Virus record (IMG/VR): IMGVR_UViG_3300047564_001730
Span: 1-33,982 of that record
DNA length: 33,982 nucleotides
Origin: a virus
Strand: one strand, 5' to 3'
Position numbers and translations under genes: made by a program. The stretch's first letter is position 1; every line of letters begins with the position of its first letter. The notes beneath the pieces were generated by a model. It did no database searches and was not told the origin of the DNA. It worked only from the letters and a program-made list of their open reading frames with translations. This document shows, piece after piece, positions 4,226-25,157 of this stretch.

Positions 4226-4603
4226 ATGACTACATATTCTGGTTTTAGTACCTACCGCCGCGTTAGAAAATATCGTGTTACAGATTTTGATTTAGTAAAA
4301 CAAGATCTGTACAATCATTTTCATATACGTAAAGGCCAAAAGCTCATGAACCCAAATTTTGGTACTATAATTTGGGACCTTCTCTACGAACCATTTACTG
4401 AGTCAGTGAGAGAAGCTATCGAAAAAGACATACGCACCATTGTGGCCTATGATCCCAGAATTGAAGCAGAAAAGATTACCATAACTGAATTTGTTAATGG
4501 TATCATGGTTGAACTAGATATTGTATACAGGTTAACCAACGAGTCATCGGCATTGGCACTGAAATTTGAACGCGATGCAGCCCTTAGAGCTGCTGGTGAA
4601 TAA
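4226..4603 (+). CDS. 25: gp25-like baseplate wedge subunit
   Basis: The protein is 125 residues, close to T4 gp25 (132), and is the conserved sheath-initiator type wedge subunit with a lysozyme-like fold (GPW/gp25 family). Visible family features are FDLVKQDLYNHFHIRKGQ near residue 20, NPNFGTIIWDLLYEPF near 42-58 and a basic/acidic helix up to IVAYDPRIE near residue 75. In the family the conserved Gly-x-x-(I/L)-W-(D/E) segment helps dock to gp6. It lies between the gp5-like and gp6-like genes, as in T4-like baseplate clusters. It starts 8 bases after the gp5 stop without a clear ribosome site. The assignment is confident. Confidence 0.9.
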   Translation: MTTYSGFSTYRRVRKYRVTDFDLVKQDLYNHFHIRKGQKLMNPNFGTIIWDLLYEPFTESVREAIEKDIRTIVAYDPRIEAEKITITEFVNGIMVELDIVYRLTNESSALALKFERDAALRAAGE

Positions 4604-4618
4604 ATGCCCATATAATGT

Positions 4619-4630
4619 CTAAATAAATAC
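4619..4630 (+). promoter_or_regulatory. Late-type promoter motif before the gp6-like gene
   Basis: CTAAATAAATAC lies in the 45-base gap between gp25 and the gp6-like gene, 19 bases before ATG 4649. It contains AATAAATA, one base from the T4 late consensus. The distance leaves a short leader. The assignment rests on motif and position only. Confidence 0.45.
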
Positions 4631-4648
4631 AAGAACTGGGTATAAGTA

Positions 4649-7600
4649 ATGGCCATTATTAGTCGTCAAACCGGATTATTAGCCGCAGAAAATTGGAAAA
4701 AGATTTATCAGACCTTCCGTGAGGCTGACTTTACTGCCTACGACTTTGAAACCTTGCGTAAGAGCATGATAGATTACATCAAGGTAAACTATCCCGAAGA
4801 CTACAACGATTTCACAGAAAGTTCAGAATTTGTAGCACTAATTGATCTTATTGCATTTTTAGGACAGAGTTTAGCGTTTAGAATGGATCTAAATGCTAGA
4901 GAAAATTTTGTAGACACCGCAGAACGTCGTGACAGCATACTGAAATTAGCCAGACTAATCAGTTATAATCCCAAACGCAGCATACCTGCCACCGGATATC
5001 TTAAAATTGACAGTGTCAGCACCAGTGAAACTGTGTATGACAGTGACGGTAACGATCTGAGTAATGCCATTATTAACTGGGATGATGTCAGCAATGAAAA
5101 CTGGTTAGAACAGTTTACTACCATTGTTAATGCCGCCATGGTTAATACACAAATGGTTGGGCGCCCAGCCAATAGCCAGCGTATCAACGGTATTCGCAAT
5201 GATGAATACAGCATAAACATTCTCAACAACATTGTACCTGTGTACCGATTCGAAACTGTGGTAGAAGGTCAACGTACAGGGTTTGAAGTGGTCAGTGCAA
5301 CCAGTGCAGATCAAAGCTATGTCTACGAATCGGCACCACGTGTAGGCAATGCTTTTAACATACTGTACAGAAATGACAACACCGGTAACAGCAGCAATAA
5401 CACAGGATTTTTCCTATATTTCAAACAAGGTGAACTAGGCAGTGTTGATTTCAGCATTGAAGAAATGTTGCCTAACAAAATTGTCAACATTGATATCAAC
5501 AATATCAATAACTCAGATGTGTGGCTATACAGCGTAGATTCTCAAGGACTAGTACAAGATCTATGGCGAGATGTACCTGCTACGTCAGGTATTAACATTA
5601 TCTACAACAGCAAACAAGAACGCAATTTATATCAAATCAACAGCAGAGCCAATGACCAAATCAGCTTGGTATTTGGTGACGGATCATTTGCCAACATTCC
5701 TCAAGGTAATTTTAGGCTTTATTATAGAACCGGCAACGCACTAACTTATACAATTACACCAGACGAAATGCGCGGAATCACTATTAGTATGAACTATGTA
5801 AGTCGTACTAACAGAATAGAAACTATCACATTCCGAGCCAGTCTACGATACACAGTGGCCACTGCGTCAGCACGAGAAAGCATAGACGATATTAGACAGC
5901 GTGCTCCACAACAATACTATACACAAAATCGTATGGTCACTGGGGAAGATTATAACATTCTTCCCTATACCAGTTATTCAAACATTGTCAAAGCCAAGGC
6001 CATTAATAGGACCAGTGTGGGATTGAGTCGTTATCTAGATGTCTTAGATACCACTGGCAAATATTCTAGCACCAACATATTTGGTGAGGATGGCGTACTG
6101 TATCGCGATGATCATGTTGATATATTAAATTTTAGTTTTGCCAGCACTGCCGACATACTCAAGGTTATACAAAATCGAATTATTCCAAGCATAGTAGACA
6201 GCCAAGAAATGCTGCACTACTACTATGCCAACACTGTTGAGCAGTTACCCGAAATCAGTCCTGTAACAGAAGCTAATTTAAAGAATTCAGTGCTGTATAC
6301 CATTGTGAGTACAGGTACCACTGATTTCACACAGTACGGTGCAGCTAATAATATTTCAGGCACACGCTTTGTTGCCAGTAATGCCGGACCAGTGGTGCGT
6401 GGTTTTTCGGTTACTGCGTCTGGTAATTCAGCTTATGTACTCAACAGTGTTAATAATCCCAATATTGATATACGAGTTGGTGATACCATTAACTTTACAG
6501 TTAGCATAGCCGGACATCCGCTATGGATTAAAACTGCACACACCACTGGCAATGCCAATTTGGTAACCACTGGTACTATTAGTAATAATGGTGTTCAGTC
6601 TGGCACTATTAGCTGGAATACCACTGGCGTCGTGCCGGGTGTGTATTATTATCAATGCCAAAATCATTTAGGCATGTATGGTAATATCAATGTTAGAAAC
6701 TGGGGCACCGGTATAACCAGAACCGACATGCTATGGAATCTAGCTCAAATTGGTGACAGCACAGTAAATGGTTATTTTAGTTATAATGCTTCAGCTGCTC
6801 CAATTGGACCAACCTCTTTGAATCGTAATAGATTTATTGTGCCGGGCGCACTGGTACGTTTCAGAGCACCAGAAGGTCAATACTTTAACGCTACTAATAC
6901 TTTAGTAGCAGGAACACCAACTCGTGCTGAAGACAGCAATGTGGTTTATTCAGCCATAATGCAGGTCAGCAATAACGGAACCAACAACGGCGCTGGTACA
7001 TATGCCAATGGGATAGGACCGGTTAGTTTAAATTTAAAAGTTCCTACAGGTGCCATAGTAGATCGTGTTACACCGGTGTACAAGAATACTCTCAACGATG
7101 CTATTGTAGCAGCAATGGTCGCCTATATCCGGGACTTTAAGAATTTTGGCTTACGCTATGATATAACCACGCAGACATGGCAACTAATAGATACTGCGCT
7201 AATTGATTCTGCTACAAATTGGTATTTGAAATTTGTCTACAATTTTGCCAATGGTCAGTATTCAGTATCTAGTAGAAGTATTCGCTATGTGTTTCACAGT
7301 CCAGCTGAAACTAATTTTTACTTTGATGAGTCACAGCGTATCTATGACAGTGTGAATAACACTGTGATTGAAGATAACATACGTGTATTACGCACCAATC
7401 CGCAAGCTGATAGTGCTGTGCCATTGGGACGTGACTATGAGTTTAAGGTCTTTAAGAATATTGTTGGCACTGACGGATACACAGACAATCGAAGCATCAT
7501 GGTCAGCTATACTGACACCAACAATGACAGTGTACCCGATTATCCTAATGTGTTTGAATCAGTGGTTTCGCCTACGGTAAACCCAAATAATAAACTAGTG

Positions 7601-9550
7601 TACTTTGAACAAATACAAGACAGTAATCGATATGTAAGTTTAAAAGCCGTGGACAATCGCCATGTGGTTAGTAATTTTACCAATGCAGCCATGGTCAATG
7701 GTGTTATCAGAAACTATGATGTTGGTCAGCTATTTTATTTTACAGAAACCAAAGAATTTAGGCGTGTGTTATGCGGACCGGCTTTACCATTGGTATCAGA
7801 AGCTGTGTTACCGGCCAATTGTTATAACATTGACACTTTTGTTGTAGATTACCGTGGTGTAAGAGATCCTGCAACATACAGAGCCACAGCATTACAGGTT
7901 TTAGAATTATACATTACCAACACTCAATATTCGGCCTTGCAGAATGGACTGCCGGTAATTCGATATGGTCTTTATAGAACAGCTGACACCGCTGGCCTTG
8001 CTTACTGGACCAATTTGGCCATTGATCAAGGTCGTGTGGTAACCAGTGCAGCGTTCCTAAGTGAATTTTTCGCAGCAGCAAGCTCGAGCGGTCCAGGATC
8101 TACGCCCGATTCGTTCCGCATGTTAACCGCAGATAAAACTTTTGATAATACTACCACTGATTTTCCTGGCTGTACAGTGTTTAGAAACCGCGGAACTGCT
8201 GTCACTACTACAACTACTAGCACAACCTCTACTACAACTTCTACATCTACAACCACAACTACCACAGCAGCACCTACGACTACTACCTCTACGACTACTA
8301 CGGCAGCACCTACGACTACTACCTCTACGACTACTACGGCAGCACCGGGTACTACAACCTCTACAACTACTACGGCAGCACCGGGTACTACAACCTCTAC
8401 GACTACTACGGCAGCACCGGGTACTACAACCTCTACGACTACTACGGCAGCACCTACGACTACTACCTCTACAACTACTACGGCAGCACCTACGACTACT
8501 ACCTCTACGACTACTACGGCAGCACCGGGTACTACAACCTCTACGACTACTACGGCAGCACCGGGTACTACAACCTCTACGACTACTACTACTACGGCGG
8601 CACCTACGACTACTACAAGTACAACCACAATACCACCACCCACAATAGTTACATTTACATTTGACAACGGACAAACATCAAGCACCGCAGTTGCCAATGA
8701 TAATCCTAATTTTATTTGGAACGTTACTGGTACAGTAACAACTTTAACGATAACACCAATTGTAGGTGGAACACCCGGATCACAAGTTAATGTGTTAGGT
8801 GAAGGAACTAATGTTAATCCAAGTTCTGAGGTTATGGGGACCATTAGCACTACTACCACGTTTAGACTCACTGCTGGAAACAGCACAGGTTCCGTAACAG
8901 CTGACATTGTTTTAACTATTGAATCAGCAGTAAGTACCACATTTAATTTATTAAGTCCGGTTGAAAATGGTGACGCTATTATTGCCGCATTTACTACCAC
9001 TGTGGCTGACAGAGCATACATCAGGCGTCAAGATCCTGGTCTAACATATGTTAATGTATATGGATCAGCGGCAAGTCCAATCACAGTAACACCCGGTGCT
9101 CTTAACAGTGGAATTAACTTAGGCACTGCTGATTATGTTACCATGGGTGGCTCAGTTAATTACTTGCTAACTGTATTTTTGTCAACAAACCTAAGTAATA
9201 CCAATACTCAAACTCGTGCACTAACTATTAATGCACCAAGTAGTATAAACTATAGATTTGATGTAATTAATTCTACAATGACACAAGGTACTAGTCAGGA
9301 TGTTACTATTGTATCACCAGCTGGTAATACAGGACCGTTTACTATACAAGTATTCAGTGGCCCAGGACAGGTCAAGCCATTTGGTTCAGGAAGTTACGGG
9401 TCAAGCGTGAATGTTACTACATCAGTTCCTTCTGGTGAACCAGAAGCGACCGGTAAATTTACTCTACAGGCTACTGGCGCAGGATCAATTGTAATTTACT
9501 ACTACGATGGTGCTACTTTAGTTAACACCTATACAGTTACGGCCTCTTAA
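4649..9550 (+). CDS. 6: gp6-like baseplate wedge protein, N-terminal ORF with inserted domains
   Basis: 1633 residues, against 660 for intact T4 gp6. The first ~520 residues are gp6/baseplate-J-like (LRKSMIDYIKVNYPEDYND, FVALIDLIAFLGQSLAFR, RQRAPQQYYTQNRMVTGEDY); gp6 forms the ring joining the wedges. Residues ~540-590 are a short YTIVSTGTTDFTQYGAANN module of a type I recall from marine phage proteins. Residues ~595-685 are a cupredoxin-like domain with H623, C670, H673 and M676. Wedge-type sequence continues to ~1075. Residues ~1080-1145 are DUF4214-like (GLYRTADTAGLAYW), ~1185-1330 are Thr/Ser/Ala/Pro repeats and 1331-1633 look like Ig-type beta domains. The normal gp6 C-terminus is missing and is found in the next gene. 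A late-type promoter motif lies 19 bases upstream; no clear Shine-Dalgarno is seen. Confidence 0.85.
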   Translation: MAIISRQTGLLAAENWKKIYQTFREADFTAYDFETLRKSMIDYIKVNYPEDYNDFTESSEFVALIDLIAFLGQSLAFRMDLNARENFVDTAERRDSILKLARLISYNPKRSIPATGYLKIDSVSTSETVYDSDGNDLSNAIINWDDVSNENWLEQFTTIVNAAMVNTQMVGRPANSQRINGIRNDEYSINILNNIVPVYRFETVVEGQRTGFEVVSATSADQSYVYESAPRVGNAFNILYRNDNTGNSSNNTGFFLYFKQGELGSVDFSIEEMLPNKIVNIDINNINNSDVWLYSVDSQGLVQDLWRDVPATSGINIIYNSKQERNLYQINSRANDQISLVFGDGSFANIPQGNFRLYYRTGNALTYTITPDEMRGITISMNYVSRTNRIETITFRASLRYTVATASARESIDDIRQRAPQQYYTQNRMVTGEDYNILPYTSYSNIVKAKAINRTSVGLSRYLDVLDTTGKYSSTNIFGEDGVLYRDDHVDILNFSFASTADILKVIQNRIIPSIVDSQEMLHYYYANTVEQLPEISPVTEANLKNSVLYTIVSTGTTDFTQYGAANNISGTRFVASNAGPVVRGFSVTASGNSAYVLNSVNNPNIDIRVGDTINFTVSIAGHPLWIKTAHTTGNANLVTTGTISNNGVQSGTISWNTTGVVPGVYYYQCQNHLGMYGNINVRNWGTGITRTDMLWNLAQIGDSTVNGYFSYNASAAPIGPTSLNRNRFIVPGALVRFRAPEGQYFNATNTLVAGTPTRAEDSNVVYSAIMQVSNNGTNNGAGTYANGIGPVSLNLKVPTGAIVDRVTPVYKNTLNDAIVAAMVAYIRDFKNFGLRYDITTQTWQLIDTALIDSATNWYLKFVYNFANGQYSVSSRSIRYVFHSPAETNFYFDESQRIYDSVNNTVIEDNIRVLRTNPQADSAVPLGRDYEFKVFKNIVGTDGYTDNRSIMVSYTDTNNDSVPDYPNVFESVVSPTVNPNNKLVYFEQIQDSNRYVSLKAVDNRHVVSNFTNAAMVNGVIRNYDVGQLFYFTETKEFRRVLCGPALPLVSEAVLPANCYNIDTFVVDYRGVRDPATYRATALQVLELYITNTQYSALQNGLPVIRYGLYRTADTAGLAYWTNLAIDQGRVVTSAAFLSEFFAAASSSGPGSTPDSFRMLTADKTFDNTTTDFPGCTVFRNRGTAVTTTTTSTTSTTTSTSTTTTTTAAPTTTTSTTTTAAPTTTTSTTTTAAPGTTTSTTTTAAPGTTTSTTTTAAPGTTTSTTTTAAPTTTTSTTTTAAPTTTTSTTTTAAPGTTTSTTTTAAPGTTTSTTTTTTAAPTTTTSTTTIPPPTIVTFTFDNGQTSSTAVANDNPNFIWNVTGTVTTLTITPIVGGTPGSQVNVLGEGTNVNPSSEVMGTISTTTTFRLTAGNSTGSVTADIVLTIESAVSTTFNLLSPVENGDAIIAAFTTTVADRAYIRRQDPGLTYVNVYGSAASPITVTPGALNSGINLGTADYVTMGGSVNYLLTVFLSTNLSNTNTQTRALTINAPSSINYRFDVINSTMTQGTSQDVTIVSPAGNTGPFTIQVFSGPGQVKPFGSGSYGSSVNVTTSVPSGEPEATGKFTLQATGAGSIVIYYYDGATLVNTYTVTAS
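8196..8640 (+). repeat. 36-bp minisatellite encoding Thr/Ser/Ala/Pro linker
   Basis: About ten imperfect tandem units of 36 bases lie inside the gp6-like ORF. Each codes for 12 residues of the form (A/P)-P/G-TTTTSTTTTAA, with two unit types that alternate in blocks (PTTTTS and PGTTTS versions). The repeat leaves several other frames open on both strands; those are by-products. It probably forms a long, flexible linker between the DUF4214-like and Ig-like parts and may vary in copy number. Confidence 0.9.
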
Positions 9551-9600
9551 TACAACATGGAATTACTAATGCCCAATTGGTTTATTAACAAAATAAAATA

Positions 9601-9625
9601 TCTTTCTGTAGATTCTACAGAAAGA
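9601..9625. other. Perfect inverted repeat between the two gp6 ORFs
   Basis: The arms TCTTTCTGTAGA and TCTACAGAAAGA are exact reverse complements around a single T. It lies 51 bases after the stop of the N-terminal gp6 ORF and 27 bases before the C-terminal ORF. As RNA it could form a 9-bp stem with a 7-base loop. On the plus strand no T-run follows; on the minus strand a T-rich stretch does. It could be an mRNA processing or stability element, or a scar of the insertion. Confidence 0.6.
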
Positions 9626-9651
9626 ATCTGCGTCATATTAGGCATATAACT

Positions 9652-10374
9652 ATGATAACTAATTCATGTCCAACTGGTAATAAAATTCTAAGCGATCCGT
9701 TAACGGAATACCGTGCCTATGTAGGACGCCAAGGACTGTTTTATCAATATCGTCATAACAGTCCTAGCACTAATCGTATTGATCCCAGTATCAGTAACAT
9801 CATTGATCTTTATGTGTTAACAGCCAGCTACGACACAGATTATCGTAGATGGATACAGGATTCCACTGGCACAGTTTCCAAACCAGTAGCACCTACCAAC
9901 ACTGAATTAGCATTGGCCTACAGCGATTTAAATAATTTAAAAACAATCAGTGACACCATTGTGTTTAACAGTGCGGTATTCAAGCCCATCTTTGGCGCTA
10001 AAGCGGATCCAGCACTACAGGCCACATTTAAGGTAGTAAAGAATCCTACACTGAGCATCAGCGACAGCGATATCAAAGCCAGTGTAATAGCAGCTATCAA
10101 TGACTATTTCAGCACTGAAAACTGGGATTTTGGTGATGACTTTTATTTCAGTGAACTTAGTGCGTATTTGCATAGAGTGCTTAGTCCCAACATTGCCAGC
10201 ATTGTGATAGTGCCTAAAGATCCCACAGTGAGTTTTGGTAGTTTGTATCAGATCAATGCCGAGCCTAATGAAATCATAATTAGTGCGGCCACTGTGGATG
10301 ATGTTGAAATTATTTCAGCTGTAACAGCAGGACAGTTAAATCAAAGTTTAGCAGTAGTGAATCGTAGTGCGTGA
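9652..10374 (+). CDS. gp6-like C-terminal domain as a separate ORF
   Basis: These 240 residues match what I recall as the C-terminal part of gp6 in marine T4-like phages: GLFYQYRHNSPSTNRIDPS, IIDLYVLTASYDTDYRRW, LQATFKVVKNP, NWDFGDDFYFSELSAYLHR and EIIISAATVDDVEII. In the usual gene this follows directly on the wedge domain. Here it is a stand-alone ORF, 101 bases after the stop of the N-terminal ORF and in a different frame. The first ~22 residues (ITNSCPTGNKILSDPLTEYR) lead into the conserved part, so ATG 9652 is a reasonable start, though only weak AGG-type ribosome signals precede it. The product probably assembles with the N-terminal piece in the wedge ring. It ends 13 bases before the giant gene. 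Confidence 0.8.
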   Translation: MITNSCPTGNKILSDPLTEYRAYVGRQGLFYQYRHNSPSTNRIDPSISNIIDLYVLTASYDTDYRRWIQDSTGTVSKPVAPTNTELALAYSDLNNLKTISDTIVFNSAVFKPIFGAKADPALQATFKVVKNPTLSISDSDIKASVIAAINDYFSTENWDFGDDFYFSELSAYLHRVLSPNIASIVIVPKDPTVSFGSLYQINAEPNEIIISAATVDDVEIISAVTAGQLNQSLAVVNRSA

Positions 10375-10387
10375 TTGGGATTAGATA

Positions 10388-13300
10388 ATGGCAGTGATTA
10401 GAAAAACCGTAGACCTACTTCCTAGTGTATTTAGAACGGATGTTAATAGAAAATTCCTAGGATCCACAGTAGACCAGCTGGTAAGCGATACCGCGCTGAC
10501 CAGAATTGATGGATTCATTGGCCGACAATTCAGTCCTACACATTCTCCCAGTGACAATTATCTACTAGAGCCCACTGCGGCCAGAACCAATTATCAACTT
10601 GAACCTACGGTGGTAGTTGAAAATACCAGTGATAAGATTGATTTACTCTGCGATTACAACGACCTAATCAACAAAATTAACTACTATGGTGGTAAAACTG
10701 ATAATCATGATAGATTGTTTAGTCAAGAGTACTATACCTTTGATCCTAGAATTGACCTTGACAAGTTTGTAAACTACAGCCAGTATTACTGGTTGCCTGA
10801 TGGTCCTGCACCGGTTACTGTTAGTACCAAAGGCATAATCACAGCCAACACTTATACCTTTACTGCTGGTGTTAGCAGTTATACAACCAATAGAACAGGT
10901 GCAGTCACTAACCCTACTATATATTTGGCTCGTGGCGTTACCTATGCGCTTTCAGTAAACCATGCAGGCGCAGGCAATCTTTGGATTCAAACTGAACCTG
11001 GTGTTACTGGACGCAAACTTTATTTGCCTCAAGTTTCTAGTAGAAACATCTTAGGTGTAACCAACAACGGCGAGGATTCAGGAACTATTGTATTTGCTGT
11101 GCCCACTGAAACAGCTCAAGATAGTTTATTAACATTGCCCTTAGTGGATTATGTCAACTATGCTACTTCAGCTACTTTTACCAGCTTAGACGGCAGCTTA
11201 TGGACTCAAGGTACCAGCACCATAGATGGTGATGGACAGTTTCCTAAAGATCGTTATATTATATTCACCAATACCAGCACAGCCAATGGCGATTGGACCG
11301 ACCGTAATAGTGCAGTGGTAGCTGCCGGCAACAGATACAGTGTATGGAAAATCACAGTTAATCATTTAAACCGTATCGAACTCAGCTTGGCACGATCAGT
11401 TGCAGTAGATACTAGAATTAAAATACTCGACGGTGGTACACAAGAAGGTGCACAATGGCGTAGAACCAGCACTGGCTACAGCCTAATACCAGATGTTACT
11501 GCTCCATTGACCACGCTGTATTATCAAAATGATAGTAGTCCAGATCTTTACGGCGAAATACGCTTGGTAGATGCCAAGATTAATACCATCACAGTCAACA
11601 CAGACATTGTAGGCAAGACAGCTTATGTTAGCCCAGATGGAGTGCGATTTACCAATGGCATGATGGTTTACTTTGATGAAACCGTGGAACCTGCACAGTA
11701 TCGTAATCGCAGTTATATTGTAGAAGGTGTGGGCACCGCTATACGTTTGGTAGACTATGCACAGCTAGTCAGCCCAGAAGTAACCAGTCCTGAACAAAAT
11801 GTACCTTTTGACATCACTGCATTTGACATCGGCGGTTTTGACGCTACTGTACAAGGTAGCACCGAACCCGATTACATAGTGGTAAACCGTAGCAGCATGG
11901 ATCTCAATGCCTGGAGCCGTGTTAATCGTTGGTTTCACATAGATGTTATTCGTCAGGCAGCAGCAGCCAATGGTACCACAGTTAATTTAAATCAGTCAAG
12001 TCGGGCACAACGACCTATCATTGAGTTTGATCCAGATCTGCAATTATACAACGCAGGTAGAATTGGCATTGGTGCTGTGGATCAAGTGTTTGATGCCAAT
12101 GTGTTTCTAAATGAGTCTGGCACAGTTACAGTGCTCACTGATGCACTGTCTAAGGTACACCAGAAAACATTTGCCAGCTTGAAGACATCGGGTATAAATC
12201 TACGTCCGGCACAGCGTGTGGTATTTGCCAATGACGCAGATCCCACAGTAAGAAAGACTGTTTATCGTGTAGATTTTGTTAATCAATTGGTGGCTGTGTC
12301 TGGTAGTAACCTAACCGGTGCTATTACTGCACGAGCAGGATCTACTAGAATTTCAGGAACCGGTACAGCGTTTCTAACCGAATTAGAAGTTGGCACAGAT
12401 TTGTACCGCTCAGACTTTAGCTACATTGGGCGTGTAAAACAGATTTTCACTGACACATACTTGATTGTTGAAAATGCGGTTTACAGCAACATCAATAATT
12501 TAAGTGGAATTAAATATAATCCACCTAAGGTAAATTTAACCAGTGTCACAGTGGCTCAGCAATATGACAGCATCACAGTGATGTCAGGTAGCAATGCCAA
12601 GAAGTCTTACTATCTGACTACCAGTGGCCTATGGAAAACAGCACAGCAAAAGACCGCAGTAAATCAAGAGCCATTATTTGATATTATTACCACTCAAGAT
12701 GTCAGTTTAACCAACGCATATTTAAACAGTACCTTTGCTGGTACCAAGTTGTTTAGCTATAGTCGTGGTAGCACAGTGGCAGATCCAGTATTGGGATTCT
12801 CATTGAGCTACAGCAGCACTGGTGGCAGCATTGGGCAGTTAAACTTCACTAACAATTACTGTGCGGATACTTTTGCATATACATCAGATTCGGTTAAACG
12901 CATTACCACTGAGCTTAAGACCAATGTGGGATTTATTAGAAAGATCACTGGTAGAGTAACTTATAGTTTACTAAACACCTGGAACCGTGTTAGTGATACC
13001 AGCAAGCAGTACCAACAAATTACGGCAGTTTATGATGGCCTAACCAGTTATTTTGAACTAGGCGCAGTTCCGGTAATAGATACCATTGACACTCCATCTA
13101 TAAAAATTTATATCAACAATCGTCGTTTAACCAGAACAACTGTAGCTGGTAGTTTTGCCACAATTACGGGCACAGCAGCAACAACCACAGTGACCGGAGC
13201 TAATGCAGCAATCTATGCCACCACTGTCAATGGTTACTACAATACCTATCTTGGTAGACATGCTGACCAGACTGGTTTAGATTATTGGGTAAATCTTGTT

Positions 13301-16300
13301 AATAATGGGACTGTGACACTCAGCGAAGTCGAAGCCAGAATCATAGCCAGCGAAGAAGCCTATAGATTTGCCTGTGGATTTGAACTAGCACAGGTCGGGG
13401 CAAGAACCGCAGTTAAAATACGCACAGACTTGTTAAGTCAGGGCGACCGTGTGGATATCCTGTTCTACAGCACTGCAATCAGTGAGCTGGCTCACTATGA
13501 AATTCCCAAGAATCTAGAGTTTAATCCGCAGAATTCCGAAATCGCACAATTAACACTAGGTCAACTACGCAACCACCTTCAAACCATTGGAGAAAATACT
13601 CGCGGTCTAATAGGATCAGCACTGGCTCAAGGCAACATAAGAGACTTAGATATCACAGCCAAACCTGGAACTATTTTACAGCACAGTGCTCCTATTATCT
13701 ACAGTAGCTTATTTCTGTCAGACTCTGATGCTAACTTTATAAACAGCATAGATTTTGCTCGTAGAGAATACACAAGATTTAAAAATAAATTTTTAGAATT
13801 ATCAGTGACTTTGCCTGATGTGAATCCTAGCGACATCAGTCACAGCGTGGATGTAATTTTAGAATCTATCAACACTGTTAAGAACAACTTGTTCCCATGG
13901 TACTATTCTGACATGATGGCCCATGGCAGCGACTACAATCAAACCACTATCACTGTGTTAAATGCATCAGTGAAGACCTATAATCTTTCTAGATCTTATA
14001 GAACTCTTAGTGTGGGCAGTACCGCAGTATTGATTTATCGCAATGGAACATTATTGGTCAAAGACATTGATTTTGTGTTTGACGCCAGTGCCACTTTTAC
14101 CTTGAGTAGCAGTGTGACATTGAATTTAAATGATACTTTGGTTATTAGAGAATATGCCAACACCGAAGGATCTTATGTTCCTGAAACACCTAGCAAGTTA
14201 GGCCTTTATCCTAAGTTTGTACCTGCTATCTACACAGATACAACATATAGAACAGCTCGACAAGTGATTCAAGGTCACGATGGTAGTATCACACCGGCTT
14301 TTGGTGATTATCGAGATAATTTACTACTAGAGTTAGAAAAGCGCATTTACAATAATATTAAAACCGAATACACTGGTGCTCTGTTCAACATAAACTCTAA
14401 CCAGCCTGGAAAATACAGAACCACTGCCTATAACAACAGTGAATATAGAGATATTCTCAATACTGAATTCCTAAAGTGGGTCGGCTATAATCAACTTGAC
14501 TTTGCCAGCAATACTTACTTTCTAGGCAACGATGAATGGAGTTGGAACTACAGTGGTTCCCTAGACATAGATGACGCTGAAGTATCCGGATACTGGCGTG
14601 GCATCTATCGTTATTACTATGACACAGATCGTCCACATACGCATCCTTGGGAAATCATGGGTTATGCGATAAAGCCAAATTGGTGGGATACTTATTATTC
14701 CTGGACTGATCCTGTCAAGCGTAGCACCTTGATATTTAATATTACCAATGGGCTAATCAATGACCCAGGGTCTGCCACAGCAGCGCAGGCTAACCCTGTT
14801 TATGCTAGACCAGGATTCAGTAGTCGTGTACCAGTGAACAGTGCTGGTCAATTACTGTCGCCAATGTCTACAGTAATTAAGAAATTTAACGATTCAAACT
14901 TTAACAGACCATTTGCAGTTGGTGATCAAGGTCCAGTTGAAAGTGCTTGGTATCGTAGCAGCGAATATGCTTTTGCTGTGCAACGTGCCATGGCATTAAT
15001 GCGTCCTGCTGAGTATTTTGGCAGATTAGCTGACACATTCAGATATGGTATCAACAGTTTAATTAACCAATATGTACGCAGCACAGGTCTAGTGCGTGGT
15101 AGTACCAGTGGCACTGCTATCAACGGAGAAGTCATTGGATCGGTGACCACAAGATCGTTGGGGTATTTAAATTGGGTACAGGCTTATTTGACCAGTCTGG
15201 GTCGTGATGGCACCGCAGTTATTAGAACACTGCTTGACACTGTGCAGGTTAAACTAAGTCATAAACTAGCTGGATTCAGTGACAGAAACATGATTACTGT
15301 GCTAGCTGAACAGTTTTCGCCTACTAGCACCAGTGAAAGTGTGATTATTCCTGATGAAAACTATCAGGTTCATTTAAATCGTAGTGTGCCGGTGGCAAGA
15401 GCTACCTACAGTGCTGTGATCATTGAACGATCAGAAAACGGTTACACAGTCAGCGGTTACGATCTCAAATATCCTTATTTTATCATTGTTCCCAGTGAAA
15501 CAGCCGGTACTGCCTATGAAATTGGTGTGCTTGACCAAACTGCTGTGGTCTACGAGGATTTCAAAATACAAAAGGTAGCTGTGCCTTATGGTTATGAATT
15601 TACCAGTGCACAACAGGTTGTTGATTTCCTAGTAGGTTACGAGCGTTGGCTAATAGCTCAAGGATTTATCTTTGATAGATACAGCACAGATTTTCAATTG
15701 ATGCAAGATTTTAAACTTGCTGCAAGAGAATTTTTAACTTGGGATCAACAAGGATGGCAACCTGGTAACATTATTGTGGTTAGTCCAGTTGGTGACAAAT
15801 TAGATATTTTCACCGACAATACAGTGGTTGATTATATTACTAACAGAATCAATGAATCGCAGCTGATGGGTGTTAACTTTAATGTAATTAAAGCTGCTGA
15901 TTTTTCTGTGATACGTGACAGTAATTTAACCACAATATTTACTCTTAGCGGGCAAAGTATTGCATTTGCTGAACTAAATCTTGTGCAGTATGAACATGCA
16001 TTGGTGTTTGATAATACCACAGTGTTCAATGACATAATTTATAAACCTGACCTGGGCAATAGACAATATAGATTAAGACTAGTAGGAGCCATAACCAGTA
16101 ACTGGGATGGACAATTAACACCACCAGGATATATCTATAACACTGGTAATATTGCTGATTGGGCTACAGGTCAAGATTACCGTAAAGGTGACATTGTTAG
16201 ATACAAGTTGAAAAATTATACTGCGGCACAAGATGTTGCTGCTAGCGATAGTTTCAACTACAATTATTGGACTCTATTAGACAGCGTACCAGAATCTGGA

Positions 16301-19300
16301 CTAAGTGCAAACTTTGTCACTGGTGCCAGCAGATCCAAACAGTTCTATGACGTTGACGATCAGCCATTGGATGAACAATTTGCTAGATTTAGCAATGGTC
16401 TAATAGGTTTTAGGAATCGTACCTATCTTGAAAACTTAGGTATGAATACCATAACTCAGACCAAGTTTTATCAGGGTTACATACGAGAAAAAGGAACCAA
16501 GAACAGTATTGCTGCTCTAAGTCGTGGACAATTCAATAACATAAGCAGTACAATTACTGTATACGAAGAATGGGCTGCTCGAGTTGGTGAATATGGAGCC
16601 ATAGACAGCAATCCTTATATTTCATTGGCACTTAAAGATTCTGTGTTCCGTGACAGACCCATGGCCATTGAGTTACTATCTACCACAGGTACTGCCAGCG
16701 ATAACAATGTGATTGCTGTAAAGCCTCATGAATTAACTTATCGTCCTGATCCTTATACACCAAATATCTTTTTAACTAGAGAACCTGCTGTTACCAAAAC
16801 ATTCAAAATAGAATTGTTTGGTGATGGTATCATGTGCGGCCGAGATCCTGCTGCTGCATCCATGGTAAATTTACAACCAGTGGTAGCATGCCGTGATGAC
16901 CGAACCACAGCCAGAGTTGCTAGCCCTCCGGATTATCTACTTTATCAGGCACTTAATAGCAAGTATAACCTAGCAATTACCACACGTTCAGTGGAAAACT
17001 CAACTTCGGCACAGTTGTTGTCCGGTGGCGACAGTGTAAATGGTGCTTGGCCCGACGACATAGAAGCTGACATTGTTGTAATCAACCATGGCATGATTGA
17101 TGCTAAAAATGGCATATCAGTGGTTGATTATAAATCAAATCTACGAGCACTGCGTACAGCATTGAAGCCAGATCAAATGGTTATTTGGCAAACTCCTAGT
17201 TTGGTAAATCGTAGTTTGCCCAGCACTGATTGGAGTTTAACTGGAACCAACGACGTAGCCATATATGCTCAGGCCATGAGAGAAGTGGCAGCAGAGTACA
17301 ATGATGTAGTAGCCGATGCGGCCGCTATACCAAATTGGACTAACTACCTTGGCACCAATGGAGTATATCCTTCGCAACAAGGATACACCGTGTTGGTTAA
17401 CACAGTGTTGGCACCCGCAGTAGAAAAGGTTATAAGAAAACAACTACAACAGCAGATTAGAGTATTCGAAGACGATGTTAAAACTGCTGGTTACGTAAAT
17501 CAAGACCATGTTGATCATTTGCTATTCGATCTTTATAACTACAGCTCATTGACTGACTCTGTGTTGTCTGAGCTGGTAACTGGATATAAAATTTGGGTTG
17601 CCAAGGATTTTAACGACGATTGGCAGGTTTACAGAGCCTACCAAGCAGAAAACATTGTTACCAGAGTAGAAGCCGATATTGATAATCGCATCGTATTCAC
17701 CATTGAATCAGCACATGGGCTTGCGGCCTATGATGTGTTTGCAGTGCGTGGTATGGATCCTGCTATCGACGGATTTTATCAGGCCCTGATTGTAGACGCC
17801 AACACTGTAACAGTGTTAGCCAGTGATACAGTTTATCAATATGTAGGCAATCAAGTTACAACTAGTAGTACCGCACTGTTATTCGACCTGCAAAAATTAA
17901 GATTTGCCAATAATACACAGCGTGATCTAGCAGTGCCCAAGCATGGATGGTTAAATTCTGATCGTGTCTGGATCGATGACAGCGGTGATGCACTTGGTAG
18001 TTGGGCAGTATATGATAGATTAGACACTTATAGAATAGCCGGCGATCGAGGTAACGTGTCCACTAGCGGCACAGTTAATTTTACAGTTACCACAGTACAA
18101 CCAAACGAAACTGTGTACTATACCATTGCCGACGGAGCCACTGCTACAGTAATACCAGAAACCAATGCATGGACATTGTTGGTCAGCCAGCCCATGCATG
18201 TGGACATTGACAGTATCAGTAATTGTTATTTGTTCTCTAATAAAACCAAAGAAATTGTTGCTAGACTAGACATACTTGACCCAGCCAAAGGCAGACTACT
18301 AGGCGTGGCACAAAGCAATATCGACTACACAACCAGTATTGATCCTGCACGTTATAGTAACAGCAGCAGTTTGTCTGACGTATTACCAACCAGTACTGAT
18401 TATTATTGGGCGGCAGCACAAGTAGGAAAATTCTGGTGGAACATAGACACCTGTAGATTTGTAGACTATGAACAAGGATCATTGACCTATAGATTGGCCA
18501 ATTGGGCAAAACTATTCCCAGGTAGCAGCGTGGATGTTTATGAATGGATCGAAAGCGATCTGTTGCCCAGCGAGCATGTTGCTGCTGGTCTACCTGGTGT
18601 GCCTTTGTATGCCAATGACGACGGATATAGTCGTGTAAGTTACATAGACCCGGCTACCAACATAGTCAAAACCAAGTACTACTATTGGCTTCACGGTCAT
18701 AACACCAAGATTAGCGATCAGCGCACACATACCAGTTACAGTCTTGAACAAATCATTGCTGCTCCAGAACAACAAGGAATTCCTTATCTGGCACCATTGA
18801 GTACCAATGCTTTTGCGTTGTTTAATGTAGGTAGCTATTTGTCTGGGTCTGACACAGTGGTACATGTCAGTTATCGTCGTGTGCTTAATGAGCGCATTAT
18901 TCACAGTGATTACAAACTGATACAGCAAGGTGATCCTGCTAGCACAATTCCTGATAGAATTGAAAGCAAAATCATCGACAGCGTGATCGGCTCTGACGCA
19001 CTGGGATTGCCAGTGCCAAGTCCTATTTTACCGCCTAGCCAACGTTTAGGATTAGGCATGAGACCAAAACAAACAGTGGTACTCAATGCTGATGTGGCCA
19101 AGGAAAATCTGGTCAAATATGTAAATTCGGTATTGATCAAGCAGGCACTAGCAGGCAAGCTAGTGGACAGTGCCGGCAGTACCGTAGACAACTTTTTCGC
19201 ACGAGATCCTATTCCTGCTGCCACTGAGTACCTGCATAGAGTTAGTACCTACAGTAGAATTACACTGCCTCCGGCCAACGTTGGAGAACGTATACTGGTT

Positions 19301-21982
19301 GAACGTGACGAGCGTAACAGTAATTACTGGACCATTTATCAACGTACCGACACTGGATATAAACTACTGCGTCGCCAACAATTTGACGTAACCAAACTCT
19401 GGAGTCTAGTAGACTGGTATGCCAGTGGCTATTCGGCCAAAACCAATCCGGACTATACTGTAAACGAGTACAAAGACATTTATAAACTACCATTGGTTGA
19501 TGGAACCTTGGTGCAAGTTTTAAACAGTCGATTCGATTTCGCCAGTCTGATTAACACTTATCGTACAGCCAAACAAACCACTGGTGTTACAGAACTTTAT
19601 AGATTTGATACCATTGAAGGTACTTTAAAACCTATTTTAATTGGTAGAGAAAATGGTACTTTCCAACTCAGTGACGATTTATATGCTGGCAAAGGGTTTG
19701 ATAGTGCAGCCTTTGACGCAGAAGATTTTGATAATCATTACATGACAGAATGGCGCTATATCATGCAAGGTTTGAAGCATGATATATTTGTAGCTGAGTT
19801 AGCAGTAAATTATAATCAGATGATTTACTTCCTAATCGATTACATACTCAGTGAACAGCGTTACATTGATTGGTTCTTCAAAACCAGCTTTGTAAAAGTG
19901 CTGCACCAAGTATCAGGATTGGTGCAATCACCCACCTATATTAAGAATCGTCAGGAAAATTATGAAAGCTATGTGCGTGAAGTCAAACCATACCGTACCA
20001 AAATACGAGATTACACACTGGGTTATGATCACGTAGAAAAGCCTAGGTTCACTGTAACTGACTTTGATATTCCTGCTTACTATGATACCACACTAAAAAT
20101 TTTCCGTAGTCCCAATGGTGAACAACCAAGCATTGACGCAGAAAAGTTTACCAAACCTGAATATCAAGACTGGGTAAACAACCATGGATATTCAGTTACA
20201 GCATTAAATCTTGCACAGTCAGGTTATGGTTATCGTGGCGGCAACGCCGCGCCTAGTGTTAGCATAATACGACGTGACACCAATACAGGCACTGATGCCG
20301 AAGCCAAAATATTCCTCAACAGTGACACTGGTGGAATTAGTCGAGTTAGTGTTACCAGCTTTGGATCAAATTATACACTAACACCCACAGTTACCATCAA
20401 CGGCAACGGCGGTACCATAATCAGTGACCATAAGAGTTATGCATTTAGGGTAACTGCCAAAGGTCAAGCAGACACCAGTGGCAACATAGCTTTTGGATTG
20501 TATAGCCTGGTGGGCAATGCAAATGTCTCGCTGTACACTACTGCCAACATCGGATACACCATGCATCGTATACGCAGGTCTGATGGTCAACTGTTGTTTA
20601 CAAGACATTATGAATTACCCAACGAGCTTACTGGTGGTTACACAGGATATACCAGTGCTGATTTAGCCAATGATCTCAATGATAGTTCTGCTAATCAGTT
20701 GGTAGTGGTACACACTCTAGGAGATGCTAGAACCAACAGACTCAACAATAATCTAGATCTTGCCATGTATCGTTGCGGTGCTAGCCCACTGGTGTTTGGT
20801 AATAACACAGTGATGACCGCTAACTGTGCTTATTTGTTGGTAGGTATACCAGGCGTAGGTCAAGGCAATGGACTAGAAATACAGTCAGGCAATGTAGCCA
20901 ACAGTACTACTTCATTTAGTAGATTAGATTTCAAACTACGACGCAGTTTCTTTATACCCACAGTGGCTCAGCCTAAAACTGCCAACAGTGATTTTGCATA
21001 CTCGAGTTCATTGGGCACAGATCTAGCGCCACATTACGCAGTGATATCACCTAGACTGGAAAACAATACCATTAGAAAGCTCAAAACCACCATGCGTTTT
21101 GACAGAATCCAGTATACCACACAGGTAGTAGATTGGCAACCCGGCGGATTTGATGTCAAGAACTTTGACATGGATAACTACGATCAAACCTATGCTGCTG
21201 GTACCTATGTGGCATATCGCGGTGAAGCATATGTAGCCGACGGGTTTAGCAGGACCACACCGTATGCGTACCCAGTGGTAGGCAGTTTAGAGAATCCTAA
21301 TTCTAGAACATATCGACATGGATTTTTCGATAATGCCAATGATCGTATCATGGCATATTATCAACCTACCGCAGATATGATACCTAAAGATCTAGAAAGA
21401 TTGATTCCTGGTATTAGACAAGGTGGTACTACCTATGCAGGCAGTGGATCTGGATCTGGTGCTGGTGGTACTACCACTATCATGGTAGGTGATACATTTA
21501 GTAGCATGGGCGGTTTACCGGCCAGCAATATCACTGTCACTGGTGGCAGTTTTGTAAATGAACTGTTCAGTCATGCTCCAGAAGAATTGTTACCTGGCCA
21601 AACATTTGAAAGTCTACAAATTAGAGTAATGAGCAATACCACTAATACAGGATTCCATTTGTTTAAACCATTGCAGGGTAATGTGGAATATGCTACTAGA
21701 AATTCAGTGTATACAACTACATTAACACAAGCATTGTTACTAACTGATACCACTATTACTGTGGCAGACGGTACTAAGTTAGCAGCTCCTGATCCTTTAT
21801 TGATTAAACCAGGTATTCTTTATGTCAACGGTGAACGTATTGCCTACTACAGCAAAGTAGGAAATGTGCTAAGTCAAATTAATCGTGGTTATGGTGGTAC
21901 CGGTGCTGCTGCTGTGCATCCAGCTGGAAGCTCAGTGGAGGATGTCAGTGAACGAACCAAATTGCCCACAGTTCAAACTTAA
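10388..21982 (+). CDS. Giant T4-like baseplate/tail structural protein (gp7 position)
   Basis: A single uninterrupted 3864-residue reading frame lies directly after the gp6 pieces, where T4 has gp7 (1032 residues). The N-terminus (TVDLLPSVFRTDVNRKFLG, VNYSQYYWLPDGPAPV) is of the kind seen in very large virion proteins of marine T4-like phages. Residues ~155-250 resemble a cupredoxin-like fold without copper ligands. Residues ~944-1000 are DUF4214-like (YLGRHADQTGLDYW). Residues ~2135-2345 resemble an SGNH hydrolase with altered catalytic blocks. Residues ~3750-3864 (LIKPGILYVNGERIAYYSKVG) form a small terminal beta domain. Between these are wedge/linker segments such as NNRRLTR and IWVAKDFNDDWQVYR. 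The gp7 assignment rests on position and weak recollection; the virion role is confident. Confidence 0.75.
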   Translation: MAVIRKTVDLLPSVFRTDVNRKFLGSTVDQLVSDTALTRIDGFIGRQFSPTHSPSDNYLLEPTAARTNYQLEPTVVVENTSDKIDLLCDYNDLINKINYYGGKTDNHDRLFSQEYYTFDPRIDLDKFVNYSQYYWLPDGPAPVTVSTKGIITANTYTFTAGVSSYTTNRTGAVTNPTIYLARGVTYALSVNHAGAGNLWIQTEPGVTGRKLYLPQVSSRNILGVTNNGEDSGTIVFAVPTETAQDSLLTLPLVDYVNYATSATFTSLDGSLWTQGTSTIDGDGQFPKDRYIIFTNTSTANGDWTDRNSAVVAAGNRYSVWKITVNHLNRIELSLARSVAVDTRIKILDGGTQEGAQWRRTSTGYSLIPDVTAPLTTLYYQNDSSPDLYGEIRLVDAKINTITVNTDIVGKTAYVSPDGVRFTNGMMVYFDETVEPAQYRNRSYIVEGVGTAIRLVDYAQLVSPEVTSPEQNVPFDITAFDIGGFDATVQGSTEPDYIVVNRSSMDLNAWSRVNRWFHIDVIRQAAAANGTTVNLNQSSRAQRPIIEFDPDLQLYNAGRIGIGAVDQVFDANVFLNESGTVTVLTDALSKVHQKTFASLKTSGINLRPAQRVVFANDADPTVRKTVYRVDFVNQLVAVSGSNLTGAITARAGSTRISGTGTAFLTELEVGTDLYRSDFSYIGRVKQIFTDTYLIVENAVYSNINNLSGIKYNPPKVNLTSVTVAQQYDSITVMSGSNAKKSYYLTTSGLWKTAQQKTAVNQEPLFDIITTQDVSLTNAYLNSTFAGTKLFSYSRGSTVADPVLGFSLSYSSTGGSIGQLNFTNNYCADTFAYTSDSVKRITTELKTNVGFIRKITGRVTYSLLNTWNRVSDTSKQYQQITAVYDGLTSYFELGAVPVIDTIDTPSIKIYINNRRLTRTTVAGSFATITGTAATTTVTGANAAIYATTVNGYYNTYLGRHADQTGLDYWVNLVNNGTVTLSEVEARIIASEEAYRFACGFELAQVGARTAVKIRTDLLSQGDRVDILFYSTAISELAHYEIPKNLEFNPQNSEIAQLTLGQLRNHLQTIGENTRGLIGSALAQGNIRDLDITAKPGTILQHSAPIIYSSLFLSDSDANFINSIDFARREYTRFKNKFLELSVTLPDVNPSDISHSVDVILESINTVKNNLFPWYYSDMMAHGSDYNQTTITVLNASVKTYNLSRSYRTLSVGSTAVLIYRNGTLLVKDIDFVFDASATFTLSSSVTLNLNDTLVIREYANTEGSYVPETPSKLGLYPKFVPAIYTDTTYRTARQVIQGHDGSITPAFGDYRDNLLLELEKRIYNNIKTEYTGALFNINSNQPGKYRTTAYNNSEYRDILNTEFLKWVGYNQLDFASNTYFLGNDEWSWNYSGSLDIDDAEVSGYWRGIYRYYYDTDRPHTHPWEIMGYAIKPNWWDTYYSWTDPVKRSTLIFNITNGLINDPGSATAAQANPVYARPGFSSRVPVNSAGQLLSPMSTVIKKFNDSNFNRPFAVGDQGPVESAWYRSSEYAFAVQRAMALMRPAEYFGRLADTFRYGINSLINQYVRSTGLVRGSTSGTAINGEVIGSVTTRSLGYLNWVQAYLTSLGRDGTAVIRTLLDTVQVKLSHKLAGFSDRNMITVLAEQFSPTSTSESVIIPDENYQVHLNRSVPVARATYSAVIIERSENGYTVSGYDLKYPYFIIVPSETAGTAYEIGVLDQTAVVYEDFKIQKVAVPYGYEFTSAQQVVDFLVGYERWLIAQGFIFDRYSTDFQLMQDFKLAAREFLTWDQQGWQPGNIIVVSPVGDKLDIFTDNTVVDYITNRINESQLMGVNFNVIKAADFSVIRDSNLTTIFTLSGQSIAFAELNLVQYEHALVFDNTTVFNDIIYKPDLGNRQYRLRLVGAITSNWDGQLTPPGYIYNTGNIADWATGQDYRKGDIVRYKLKNYTAAQDVAASDSFNYNYWTLLDSVPESGLSANFVTGASRSKQFYDVDDQPLDEQFARFSNGLIGFRNRTYLENLGMNTITQTKFYQGYIREKGTKNSIAALSRGQFNNISSTITVYEEWAARVGEYGAIDSNPYISLALKDSVFRDRPMAIELLSTTGTASDNNVIAVKPHELTYRPDPYTPNIFLTREPAVTKTFKIELFGDGIMCGRDPAAASMVNLQPVVACRDDRTTARVASPPDYLLYQALNSKYNLAITTRSVENSTSAQLLSGGDSVNGAWPDDIEADIVVINHGMIDAKNGISVVDYKSNLRALRTALKPDQMVIWQTPSLVNRSLPSTDWSLTGTNDVAIYAQAMREVAAEYNDVVADAAAIPNWTNYLGTNGVYPSQQGYTVLVNTVLAPAVEKVIRKQLQQQIRVFEDDVKTAGYVNQDHVDHLLFDLYNYSSLTDSVLSELVTGYKIWVAKDFNDDWQVYRAYQAENIVTRVEADIDNRIVFTIESAHGLAAYDVFAVRGMDPAIDGFYQALIVDANTVTVLASDTVYQYVGNQVTTSSTALLFDLQKLRFANNTQRDLAVPKHGWLNSDRVWIDDSGDALGSWAVYDRLDTYRIAGDRGNVSTSGTVNFTVTTVQPNETVYYTIADGATATVIPETNAWTLLVSQPMHVDIDSISNCYLFSNKTKEIVARLDILDPAKGRLLGVAQSNIDYTTSIDPARYSNSSSLSDVLPTSTDYYWAAAQVGKFWWNIDTCRFVDYEQGSLTYRLANWAKLFPGSSVDVYEWIESDLLPSEHVAAGLPGVPLYANDDGYSRVSYIDPATNIVKTKYYYWLHGHNTKISDQRTHTSYSLEQIIAAPEQQGIPYLAPLSTNAFALFNVGSYLSGSDTVVHVSYRRVLNERIIHSDYKLIQQGDPASTIPDRIESKIIDSVIGSDALGLPVPSPILPPSQRLGLGMRPKQTVVLNADVAKENLVKYVNSVLIKQALAGKLVDSAGSTVDNFFARDPIPAATEYLHRVSTYSRITLPPANVGERILVERDERNSNYWTIYQRTDTGYKLLRRQQFDVTKLWSLVDWYASGYSAKTNPDYTVNEYKDIYKLPLVDGTLVQVLNSRFDFASLINTYRTAKQTTGVTELYRFDTIEGTLKPILIGRENGTFQLSDDLYAGKGFDSAAFDAEDFDNHYMTEWRYIMQGLKHDIFVAELAVNYNQMIYFLIDYILSEQRYIDWFFKTSFVKVLHQVSGLVQSPTYIKNRQENYESYVREVKPYRTKIRDYTLGYDHVEKPRFTVTDFDIPAYYDTTLKIFRSPNGEQPSIDAEKFTKPEYQDWVNNHGYSVTALNLAQSGYGYRGGNAAPSVSIIRRDTNTGTDAEAKIFLNSDTGGISRVSVTSFGSNYTLTPTVTINGNGGTIISDHKSYAFRVTAKGQADTSGNIAFGLYSLVGNANVSLYTTANIGYTMHRIRRSDGQLLFTRHYELPNELTGGYTGYTSADLANDLNDSSANQLVVVHTLGDARTNRLNNNLDLAMYRCGASPLVFGNNTVMTANCAYLLVGIPGVGQGNGLEIQSGNVANSTTSFSRLDFKLRRSFFIPTVAQPKTANSDFAYSSSLGTDLAPHYAVISPRLENNTIRKLKTTMRFDRIQYTTQVVDWQPGGFDVKNFDMDNYDQTYAAGTYVAYRGEAYVADGFSRTTPYAYPVVGSLENPNSRTYRHGFFDNANDRIMAYYQPTADMIPKDLERLIPGIRQGGTTYAGSGSGSGAGGTTTIMVGDTFSSMGGLPASNITVTGGSFVNELFSHAPEELLPGQTFESLQIRVMSNTTNTGFHLFKPLQGNVEYATRNSVYTTTLTQALLLTDTTITVADGTKLAAPDPLLIKPGILYVNGERIAYYSKVGNVLSQINRGYGGTGAAAVHPAGSSVEDVSERTKLPTVQT

Positions 21983-23975: not shown

Positions 23976-25157
23976 GTGACACTACCTGTATGGTCTAATA
24001 CAACACCTTTGTCGCTGGGTAATATACAAGCTGAATTCGGCGGCACCGGTAACATCGGTCTCAGTGAATATTATGCAGGTGGCTTATATGTTACTGCTGG
24101 TACCACTGGTAGTTATCAAGGTGTTACTACACCTATACCAAGTTCTGGAAACATAGCCATTGGTAACTTTTATGGTGCAAGTGCCAGTGGAGGTAGCGGT
24201 GGCGGGACTACTTCAACAACAACAACCACAGCAGGGCCCGGAACTACCAGTACTACCACTACCACTACAACCACAGCAGCAGTACCATTAGAGCTGATAT
24301 TCCAGACCACAGGAACGTCTCGATTCACTCCTGGCAGTTATCTAAAAACCAATCTTAGCACTGGTGCACTAGCAGTAGGTAGTTACGGTGGTGGCGCAGG
24401 TCCTTATTGGGTAGCAGATCAAAGTCAAAGCTATAATGGTGTATATAGAACCAGTATTCTAAGCCCAGGTGCAGGATTCGACGGACCAGCTACTTATGCT
24501 GATCCAGCTGGTGCACTAGACGGCATTAATCATTATTTTGAAGAAAATCAAAGCACACGAATTACCGCTGCACCGTACCCGGGTGGTGCTAAAAAGGTTA
24601 AAAGCATTGTTATCACAGGAACCACTGATCCCGAGACCAGCACAACTACCAATGGGTACATACTAGAAAACTGGGGCCACGCCGCAGGTGGAGACACAGC
24701 TTATTCAGTGGATCAGAGATTTACTACAACCAATAATGTAAATTGTAGAATTGCAGGAACTCCATACGTGTTCTTAGGTATCCACTACGGTAATAATACT
24801 ACTCAGGTTGCTATTGGAACCAAGTTGGGCGAAGTTGGATTAAACACCGATCTAGCAATCAAGATAAGACTATATGATCCTGTTAATAATACATTATTAG
24901 CCACTCACAATACTTGGATTCCTGCACCTAATGCACCGGGATTTGGTTTTGCAAGTTCCGGTGGAGTTGTTAATGCTGACACCGCAAATGTATGTTGGCA
25001 AGTAACCAGTGCAGGTAGCCCAAGCGATTGGACCAGAACCAACTTTGTAGATGTAGGTGATCCGGGTAATAATACCGGTGCCGGTGATTGGGGAGTATTT
25101 AAGAGTAGAACTCAATCAGGACTGCCAACTAAATTGGTTATTACCTTAGGTCATTGA
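23976..25157 (+). CDS. Tail fibre-like protein with Thr-rich linker (GTG start)
   Basis: The product is 393 residues. GTG 23976 is chosen because AGGA lies eight bases upstream and the next residues (TLPVWSNTTPLSLGNIQAEFGG) form an N-terminal attachment motif that I recall from other phage tail proteins. Residues ~70-105 are a Gly/Ser stretch followed by a Thr/Ser/Ala/Pro linker like the one in the gp6-like ORF. Residues ~106-393 form a globular-looking beta domain with no family that I recognise; it contains GPYWVADQSQSYNG, INHYFEENQS and GDWGVFKSR. This could be a receptor- or glycan-binding head, but that is inferred from position. It is packed 12 bases after the S74 fibre gene, and a 7-bp hairpin covers its stop. 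Confidence 0.72.
   Translation: MTLPVWSNTTPLSLGNIQAEFGGTGNIGLSEYYAGGLYVTAGTTGSYQGVTTPIPSSGNIAIGNFYGASASGGSGGGTTSTTTTTAGPGTTSTTTTTTTTAAVPLELIFQTTGTSRFTPGSYLKTNLSTGALAVGSYGGGAGPYWVADQSQSYNGVYRTSILSPGAGFDGPATYADPAGALDGINHYFEENQSTRITAAPYPGGAKKVKSIVITGTTDPETSTTTNGYILENWGHAAGGDTAYSVDQRFTTTNNVNCRIAGTPYVFLGIHYGNNTTQVAIGTKLGEVGLNTDLAIKIRLYDPVNNTLLATHNTWIPAPNAPGFGFASSGGVVNADTANVCWQVTSAGSPSDWTRTNFVDVGDPGNNTGAGDWGVFKSRTQSGLPTKLVITLGH
24208..24287 (+). repeat. Short Thr/Ser/Ala/Pro repeat in fibre gene
   Basis: About 80 bases encode TTSTTTTTAGPGTTSTTTTT and a further Thr/Ala run between the N-terminal attachment part and the globular part of the 393-residue fibre-like protein. The composition matches the larger repeat in the gp6-like ORF, including the A-G-P-G-T variant. 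It probably acts as a flexible linker. Confidence 0.8.

Follow-up and report, generated by a model that had tools for sequence, protein, structure and literature searches.

A baseplate wedge protein gp6 apparently carried by two adjacent genes in one jumbo-phage lineage

IMG/VR virus record IMGVR_UViG_3300047564_001730, a genome fragment of 33,982 bp that we analyzed over its whole length (the window), carries its gp6-like baseplate wedge sequence in two open reading frames, and this raises the question of whether an insertion has divided one structural gene into two that are both maintained. On the + strand, hub/lysozyme-like genes, a gp25 homologue, ORF1, ORF2, and an 11.6-kb gene at the gp7 position form a baseplate cluster, in which the following features are relevant here.

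4226-4603, + strand: gp25 homologue (Pfam GPW_gp25, E=2.6e-10), upstream of ORF1, order as in relatives
4649-9550, + strand: ORF1, 1633 aa, with stop codon TAA at 9548-9550
4649-7768, + strand: gp6 N-terminal part within ORF1, residues 1-1040, core model positions 1-889
9652-10374, + strand: ORF2, gp6 C-terminal part, 240 aa, of which residues 15-237 are core model positions 899-1121
10388-21982, + strand: very large virion structural protein at the gp7 position, downstream of ORF2, order kept in most relatives

The two ORFs lie in different frames, and 101 bases (9551-9651) separate the stop of the first from the ATG of the next. Measured against a gp6 core model of 1122 positions made from relatives, about nine positions are missing between the ORF1 and ORF2 parts, all within a variable loop. 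The phrog_10646 profile, which describes the baseplate wedge subunit over 1142 positions, matches ORF1 residues 2-562 with positions 2-567 (E=2e-214) and ORF2 residues 24-231 with positions 934-1140 (E=1e-77), and QYRHNSPSTNRIDPS is found in ORF2 and absent from ORF1. The N- and C-terminal wedge regions of this family are both present, but not on a single polypeptide as is usual for it, and because two ORFs in different frames stand here against 189 one-ORF relatives, the locus appears to be a two-gene gp6 rather than an ordinary phrog_10646 member. The coordinates and profile matches bear out the original prediction that the conserved gp6 C terminus is confined to the next ORF, in another frame and 101 bases on; that prediction had also extended the wedge sequence to about residue 1075, and core homology actually stops at residue 1040, with the motif EFRRV.

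Scans of viral contigs together with annotated phage regions gave 330 loci, and removal of duplicates left 189 distinct one-ORF gp6 sequences, 11 that are cut by contig ends with no stop visible, and one split lineage, that of the window and a second contig (L003). Complete gp6 proteins of the first relative set have 1095 to 1470 aa. All 15 of the isolate records inspected (Phosso, PA5oct, RaK2, 121Q, Atu_ph07, XacN1, SCTP-2, Vibrio 2.275.O, Munch, GAP32, RAS14, UB, SD-1_S14, Sharanji, and phiKp_21) have gp6 as one CDS, and the flanking gene order is kept in most of them. The PA5oct record flags its gp6 as detected by mass spectrometry (MS), and the CBB wedge protein was seen in virions by mass spectrometry as a single gene product (PMC5259590). 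No natural two-gene gp6 boundary occurs among the surveyed relatives (189 distinct one-ORF sequences); homologues with such a boundary had been named beforehand as an observation that would count against an insertional split. Because relatives and isolates carry a single gp6 CDS, the ancestral state is one gene. The earlier statement that these parts form one polypeptide in marine T4-like phages is right as to the single polypeptide, but not as to the phages: the closest relatives are jumbo phages of the RaK2, 121Q, PA5oct, and Atu_ph07 type, and the match to gp6 of typical marine T4-like phages is restricted to the N-terminal part. The entry "baseplate wedge protein (x2)" in Phosso was considered as a split gp6 and rejected, as the second entry is the gp25 homologue and Phosso gp6 is intact. 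We note that two short viral proteins in BFVD, A0A2Z5HGH2 (200 aa) and A0A2Z5HGV8 (126 aa), match parts of the gp6 model with TM scores of 0.82 and 0.87, respectively, and are possibly another fragmented gp6 or else a fragmented record.

Across the junction, an intact close relative (L087) reads KEFRKVQLVNGVRVFSSALSDYKVYYGRQNLMYQYRHN, whereas ORF1 reads KEFRRV and then LCGPALPLVSEAVLPANCYNIDTF, with MITNSCPTGNKILSDPLTEYRAYVGRQGLFYQYRHN as the counterpart in ORF2. The cut lies in a length-variable loop joining the strand that ends in EFRRV and the strand that starts with EYRAYVGRQ. The anchor-to-anchor length over this loop varies from 21 to 69 residues in 86 relatives, and the site is naturally permissive. 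The fold was established on an intact relative (L105, 1181 aa) rather than on the window sequence; its AF2 model, built with 56 sequences, has a mean pLDDT of 78.3 and a pTM of 0.49, so that domain placement is uncertain overall, and it places the cut between two strands, 945-951 and 966-984, both in blocks that are predicted well. Among known structures, this model matches T4 gp6 (5iv5_A, E=1.8e-8) as well as 5iv5_B, 5hx2, and other wedge proteins, and a sequence-based profile search of the PDB with the gp6 alignments gave no significant match.

Beyond the core, residues 1041-1633 of ORF1 consist of four parts: a short junction, a module of about 120 aa, a Thr-rich tract, and a beta-rich block.

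7769-7819, + strand: junction after EFRRV, residues 1041-1057, placed by alignments; relatives run on into the C-terminal part here
7820-8203, + strand: inserted module CYNIDTFVVDYRG...DTAGLAYWT, residues 1058-1185, with a DUF4214-like motif and homologous modules in relatives
8204-8629, + strand: Thr-rich tract, residues 1186-1327, with a 36-bp repeat in 9.2 copies at 8258-8589
8636-9550, + strand: C terminus of ORF1 up to stop TAA, a beta-rich block of about 300 aa, called Ig-like by eye alone

The three labels that the original prediction had given to this block fared differently. The Thr minisatellite is confirmed by the 9.2 copies of the 36-bp repeat, in a tract with 93 Thr in 146 residues. 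The "DUF4214-like segment" does have the DxAGLxYWT motif but lacks a Pfam DUF4214 match; neither DUF4214 (PF13946) nor any other Pfam family matches residues 1058-1185 or the corresponding module of the relative L085, and a module homologue in another relative (L093), which has the motif in common, reaches DUF4214 at just E=0.12. The "Ig-like domains" are a guess that Pfam does not confirm: residues 1330-1633 have no Pfam match, they are beta-rich, and the single-sequence AF2 model has an uninformative pLDDT of 37. This block has a weak phrog_9158 match, and no homologue or donor was found in viral contigs, phage records, or GTDB genomes except in L003.

Part of the history of the block can be read from L085, which is the sister of the window lineage in the tree (support 0.983), is 80% identical to the window in the first 550 residues, and has 71% amino acid identity over 1191. 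The window's module is present in it at the corresponding gp6 site, with a module identity of 57%, and its contig breaks off as the Thr tract begins, in the first codons, such that the downstream half is absent. The module appears to have been at the junction already when the L085 and window lineages diverged. Differences between the two modules are concentrated at third codon positions (74, versus 42 and 35 at first and second positions), which argues that the module is under constraint, although it evolves faster than the wedge. Inserts are also present at other gp6 loops, including one in the window.

6320-6712, + strand: older in-frame gp6 insert, plastocyanin-like region, residues ~558-688, Pfam Copper-bind E=0.004 (below cutoff), common to several relatives

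Four relatives (L013, L093, L096, and L102) have a homologous module (~40 to 44% identity) in frame within the plastocyanin-like insert, at core position ~532, and one module family occupies two different gp6 loops. Four others (L004, L086, L094, and L095) have different in-frame inserts of 59 to 74 aa at core position ~825; that of L086 is a true DUF4214 domain (E=2.5e-6) and that of L004 is a sub-threshold DUF4214 match. Vibrio phage 2.275.O adds a further accessory domain of the wedge: its gp6 (L170, 1264-5127) is annotated as a carbohydrate-binding module 5/12 protein, and 167 aa separate core positions 686 and 710. The gp6 of this clade takes up accessory modules at several loops, and a chain ended by the insert is seen in the window lineage only.

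The downstream part has the properties of a gene in its own right, and the spacer before it does not resemble coding sequence.

9551-9651, + strand: spacer of 101 nt with GC 0.29 and codon statistics of the non-coding type; it has a hairpin at 9601-9625 and an AGG at 9640-9642

The codon score of ORF2 (0.228 per codon) falls between the 5% and 95% limits found for coding windows (0.106-0.404), as are those of the module and the beta-rich block, whereas the spacer scores -0.267 and resembles the neighboring spacers at 4604-4648 and 10375-10387. ORF2 is open throughout and retains conserved positions; its root-to-tip length in the tree of the C-terminal part is 1.69 versus a median of 1.75, showing no rate acceleration, and its ATG has an AGG nine bases upstream that is neither better nor worse than those of neighboring genes. 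The normal codon usage, the near-median root-to-tip length, and the ATG with its AGG support ORF2 as a maintained gene. The spacer has no Rfam match to a known RNA, and at 101 nt it could not accommodate a group I or II intron. Two candidate signals were rejected: a + strand terminator, for which the sole candidate is a terminator-like pattern on the minus strand, at chance level, and a T4-type late promoter TATAAATA, which also occurs at chance level.

Three other readings of the locus were weighed. An assembly or sequencing artefact could have joined unrelated sequence into gp6 or broken one long frame, an idea favored by the Thr minisatellite, which is difficult to assemble and at which the L085 contig breaks. 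Sequencing error is nonetheless unlikely because two contigs agree: L003, from the same lineage, has the same split; over 11,377 bp its identity is 99.98%, the only differences being mismatches at 6010 and 6034, both far from the split, and it shows no gaps and an identical insert and spacer. The module junction is also present independently in the diverged L085, and the frames would need more than one base change to join, since the ORF1 stop is at 9548-9550 and the ORF2 frame opens at 9589; we consider an artefact very improbable. Intact gp6 might alternatively have been inactivated, with ORF2 a decaying remnant and either an intact copy elsewhere in the genome or a defective phage. The window is a 34-kb fragment of an incomplete genome in which an intact gp6 could sit elsewhere, but ORF2 is open at full length with normal codon usage, conserved positions, and no accelerated rate, and the gene order is intact, which makes decay improbable.

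Programmed recoding, by ribosome bypass or by stop readthrough with frameshifting, would rejoin ORF1 and ORF2 and make the insert an internal domain. Several features of the spacer invite this reading: the ORF1 frame after the stop is open for 32 codons to 9649, two bases short of the ORF2 ATG, and reads YNMELLMPNWFINKIKYLSVDSTERICVILGI; the last sense codon, TCT, is found again in the ORF2 frame at 9601; and the hairpin is strong (z-score -2.98). A matched landing codon is often expected by chance, however, and the TCT at 9601 sits at the hairpin base; the frames are not joinable by a simple frameshift, the spacer is non-coding in its codon statistics with a GC of 0.29, ORF2 has its own ATG and AGG, and no relative needs recoding. 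We therefore regard it as very unlikely here.

We favor an insertional fission of gp6, in which two complementary chains rebuild the wedge and the new C terminus of ORF1 is a flexible, probably adhesive arm, and consider this reading as a whole probable. Its core, gp6 fission in one jumbo-phage lineage, appears well supported: the hallmarks of insertional gene fission are an intact ancestral state, an insertion at the break, and maintenance of both complementary halves, and all three are found here, the last as judged from sequence. A foreign block would have entered gp6 at the variable loop between the EFRRV and EYRAYVGRQ strands, bringing its own stop codon, after which comes an AT-rich spacer whose ribosome-binding site is weak. 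Because the block ends in its own stop, the conserved C-terminal part would have become a separate 240-aa gene translated from the ATG at 9652. The ORF1 core and ORF2 would fold together, the first ORF2 strand pairing with the last ORF1 core strand, and this pairing and the packing of the uncut protein would hold the two chains as one gp6 unit. In T4 and XM1, a wedge combines a pair of gp6-type chains with a single gp7-type chain; in XM1, it is through its third domain that the gp6 counterpart joins neighboring wedges (PMC10457771). By T4 and XM1 homology there would be two gp6 units per wedge and twelve per baseplate. The new end of ORF1 would hang free as the module, an extended Thr-rich stalk, and a beta-rich tip, and, with less certainty, we infer that it projects from the ring as an arm touching the host surface. 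A tail-cluster ORF at 23976-25157, with a GTG start and no family match, has a Thr-rich linker of the ORF1 type, and a surface-exposed, fiber-like role is favored for this reason.

The locus shares much with known systems. Like the window, phages of the RaK2, 121Q, PA5oct, and Atu_ph07 type have a gp6 core from N to C terminus, a gp25 homologue and a giant gp7-position gene as neighbors, and in-frame loop inserts, but their isolates have one chain of 970 to 1319 aa, whereas the window has two chains and an insert that ends in a stop. T4 gp6, which forms a (gp6)2-gp7 wedge and whose fold is matched by the intact L105, is one chain of 660 aa with very weak sequence similarity to these proteins. 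Insertional fission itself is already known, as in Campsomeris mitochondrial cox2, where an insertion split an essential gene and the two complementary products apparently heterodimerize (PMC5374615). The cox2 case likewise yields two complementary genes from one essential gene, but what was inserted there is an ORF cluster of 3 kb that includes a putative nuclease, whereas the window has coding domains joined to the first half and shows no nuclease. That domains are shuffled among phage tail proteins is well established (PMC10684548), Ig-like domains in tail and baseplate proteins included (Fraser 2006, as cited in PMC10684548). The window resembles these cases in that mobile accessory domains are added to tail structural proteins. 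In the known cases the host protein apparently stays one chain, whereas here the added domains end it. No report of a split wedge gp6 was found in the open-access papers searched.

Because gp6-type proteins join neighboring wedges and rearrange on contraction, a chain break should be poorly tolerated. A natural and apparently maintained two-chain gp6 would reveal which loop tolerates opening, and the junction loop would be a place already used in nature for attaching domains to a contractile baseplate. The two-chain reading predicts two products in equal numbers per virion, and the presence of the module at two gp6 loops suggests that the wedge is an overlooked location of accessory domains. 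It is conceivable, although we hold this only tentatively, that an essential ring protein is made of two chains in every subunit and that the break is used for twelve new flexible adhesive arms, with the variable gp6 loops as docking sites for mobile modules, one of which ends the chain. Elsewhere in the window, the 3864-aa protein of 10388-21982 has a GDSL lipase domain and a DUF4214 domain, and a thymidylate synthase gene (ThyX-like, phrog_85; 27413-28090, - strand) adjoins the tail genes.
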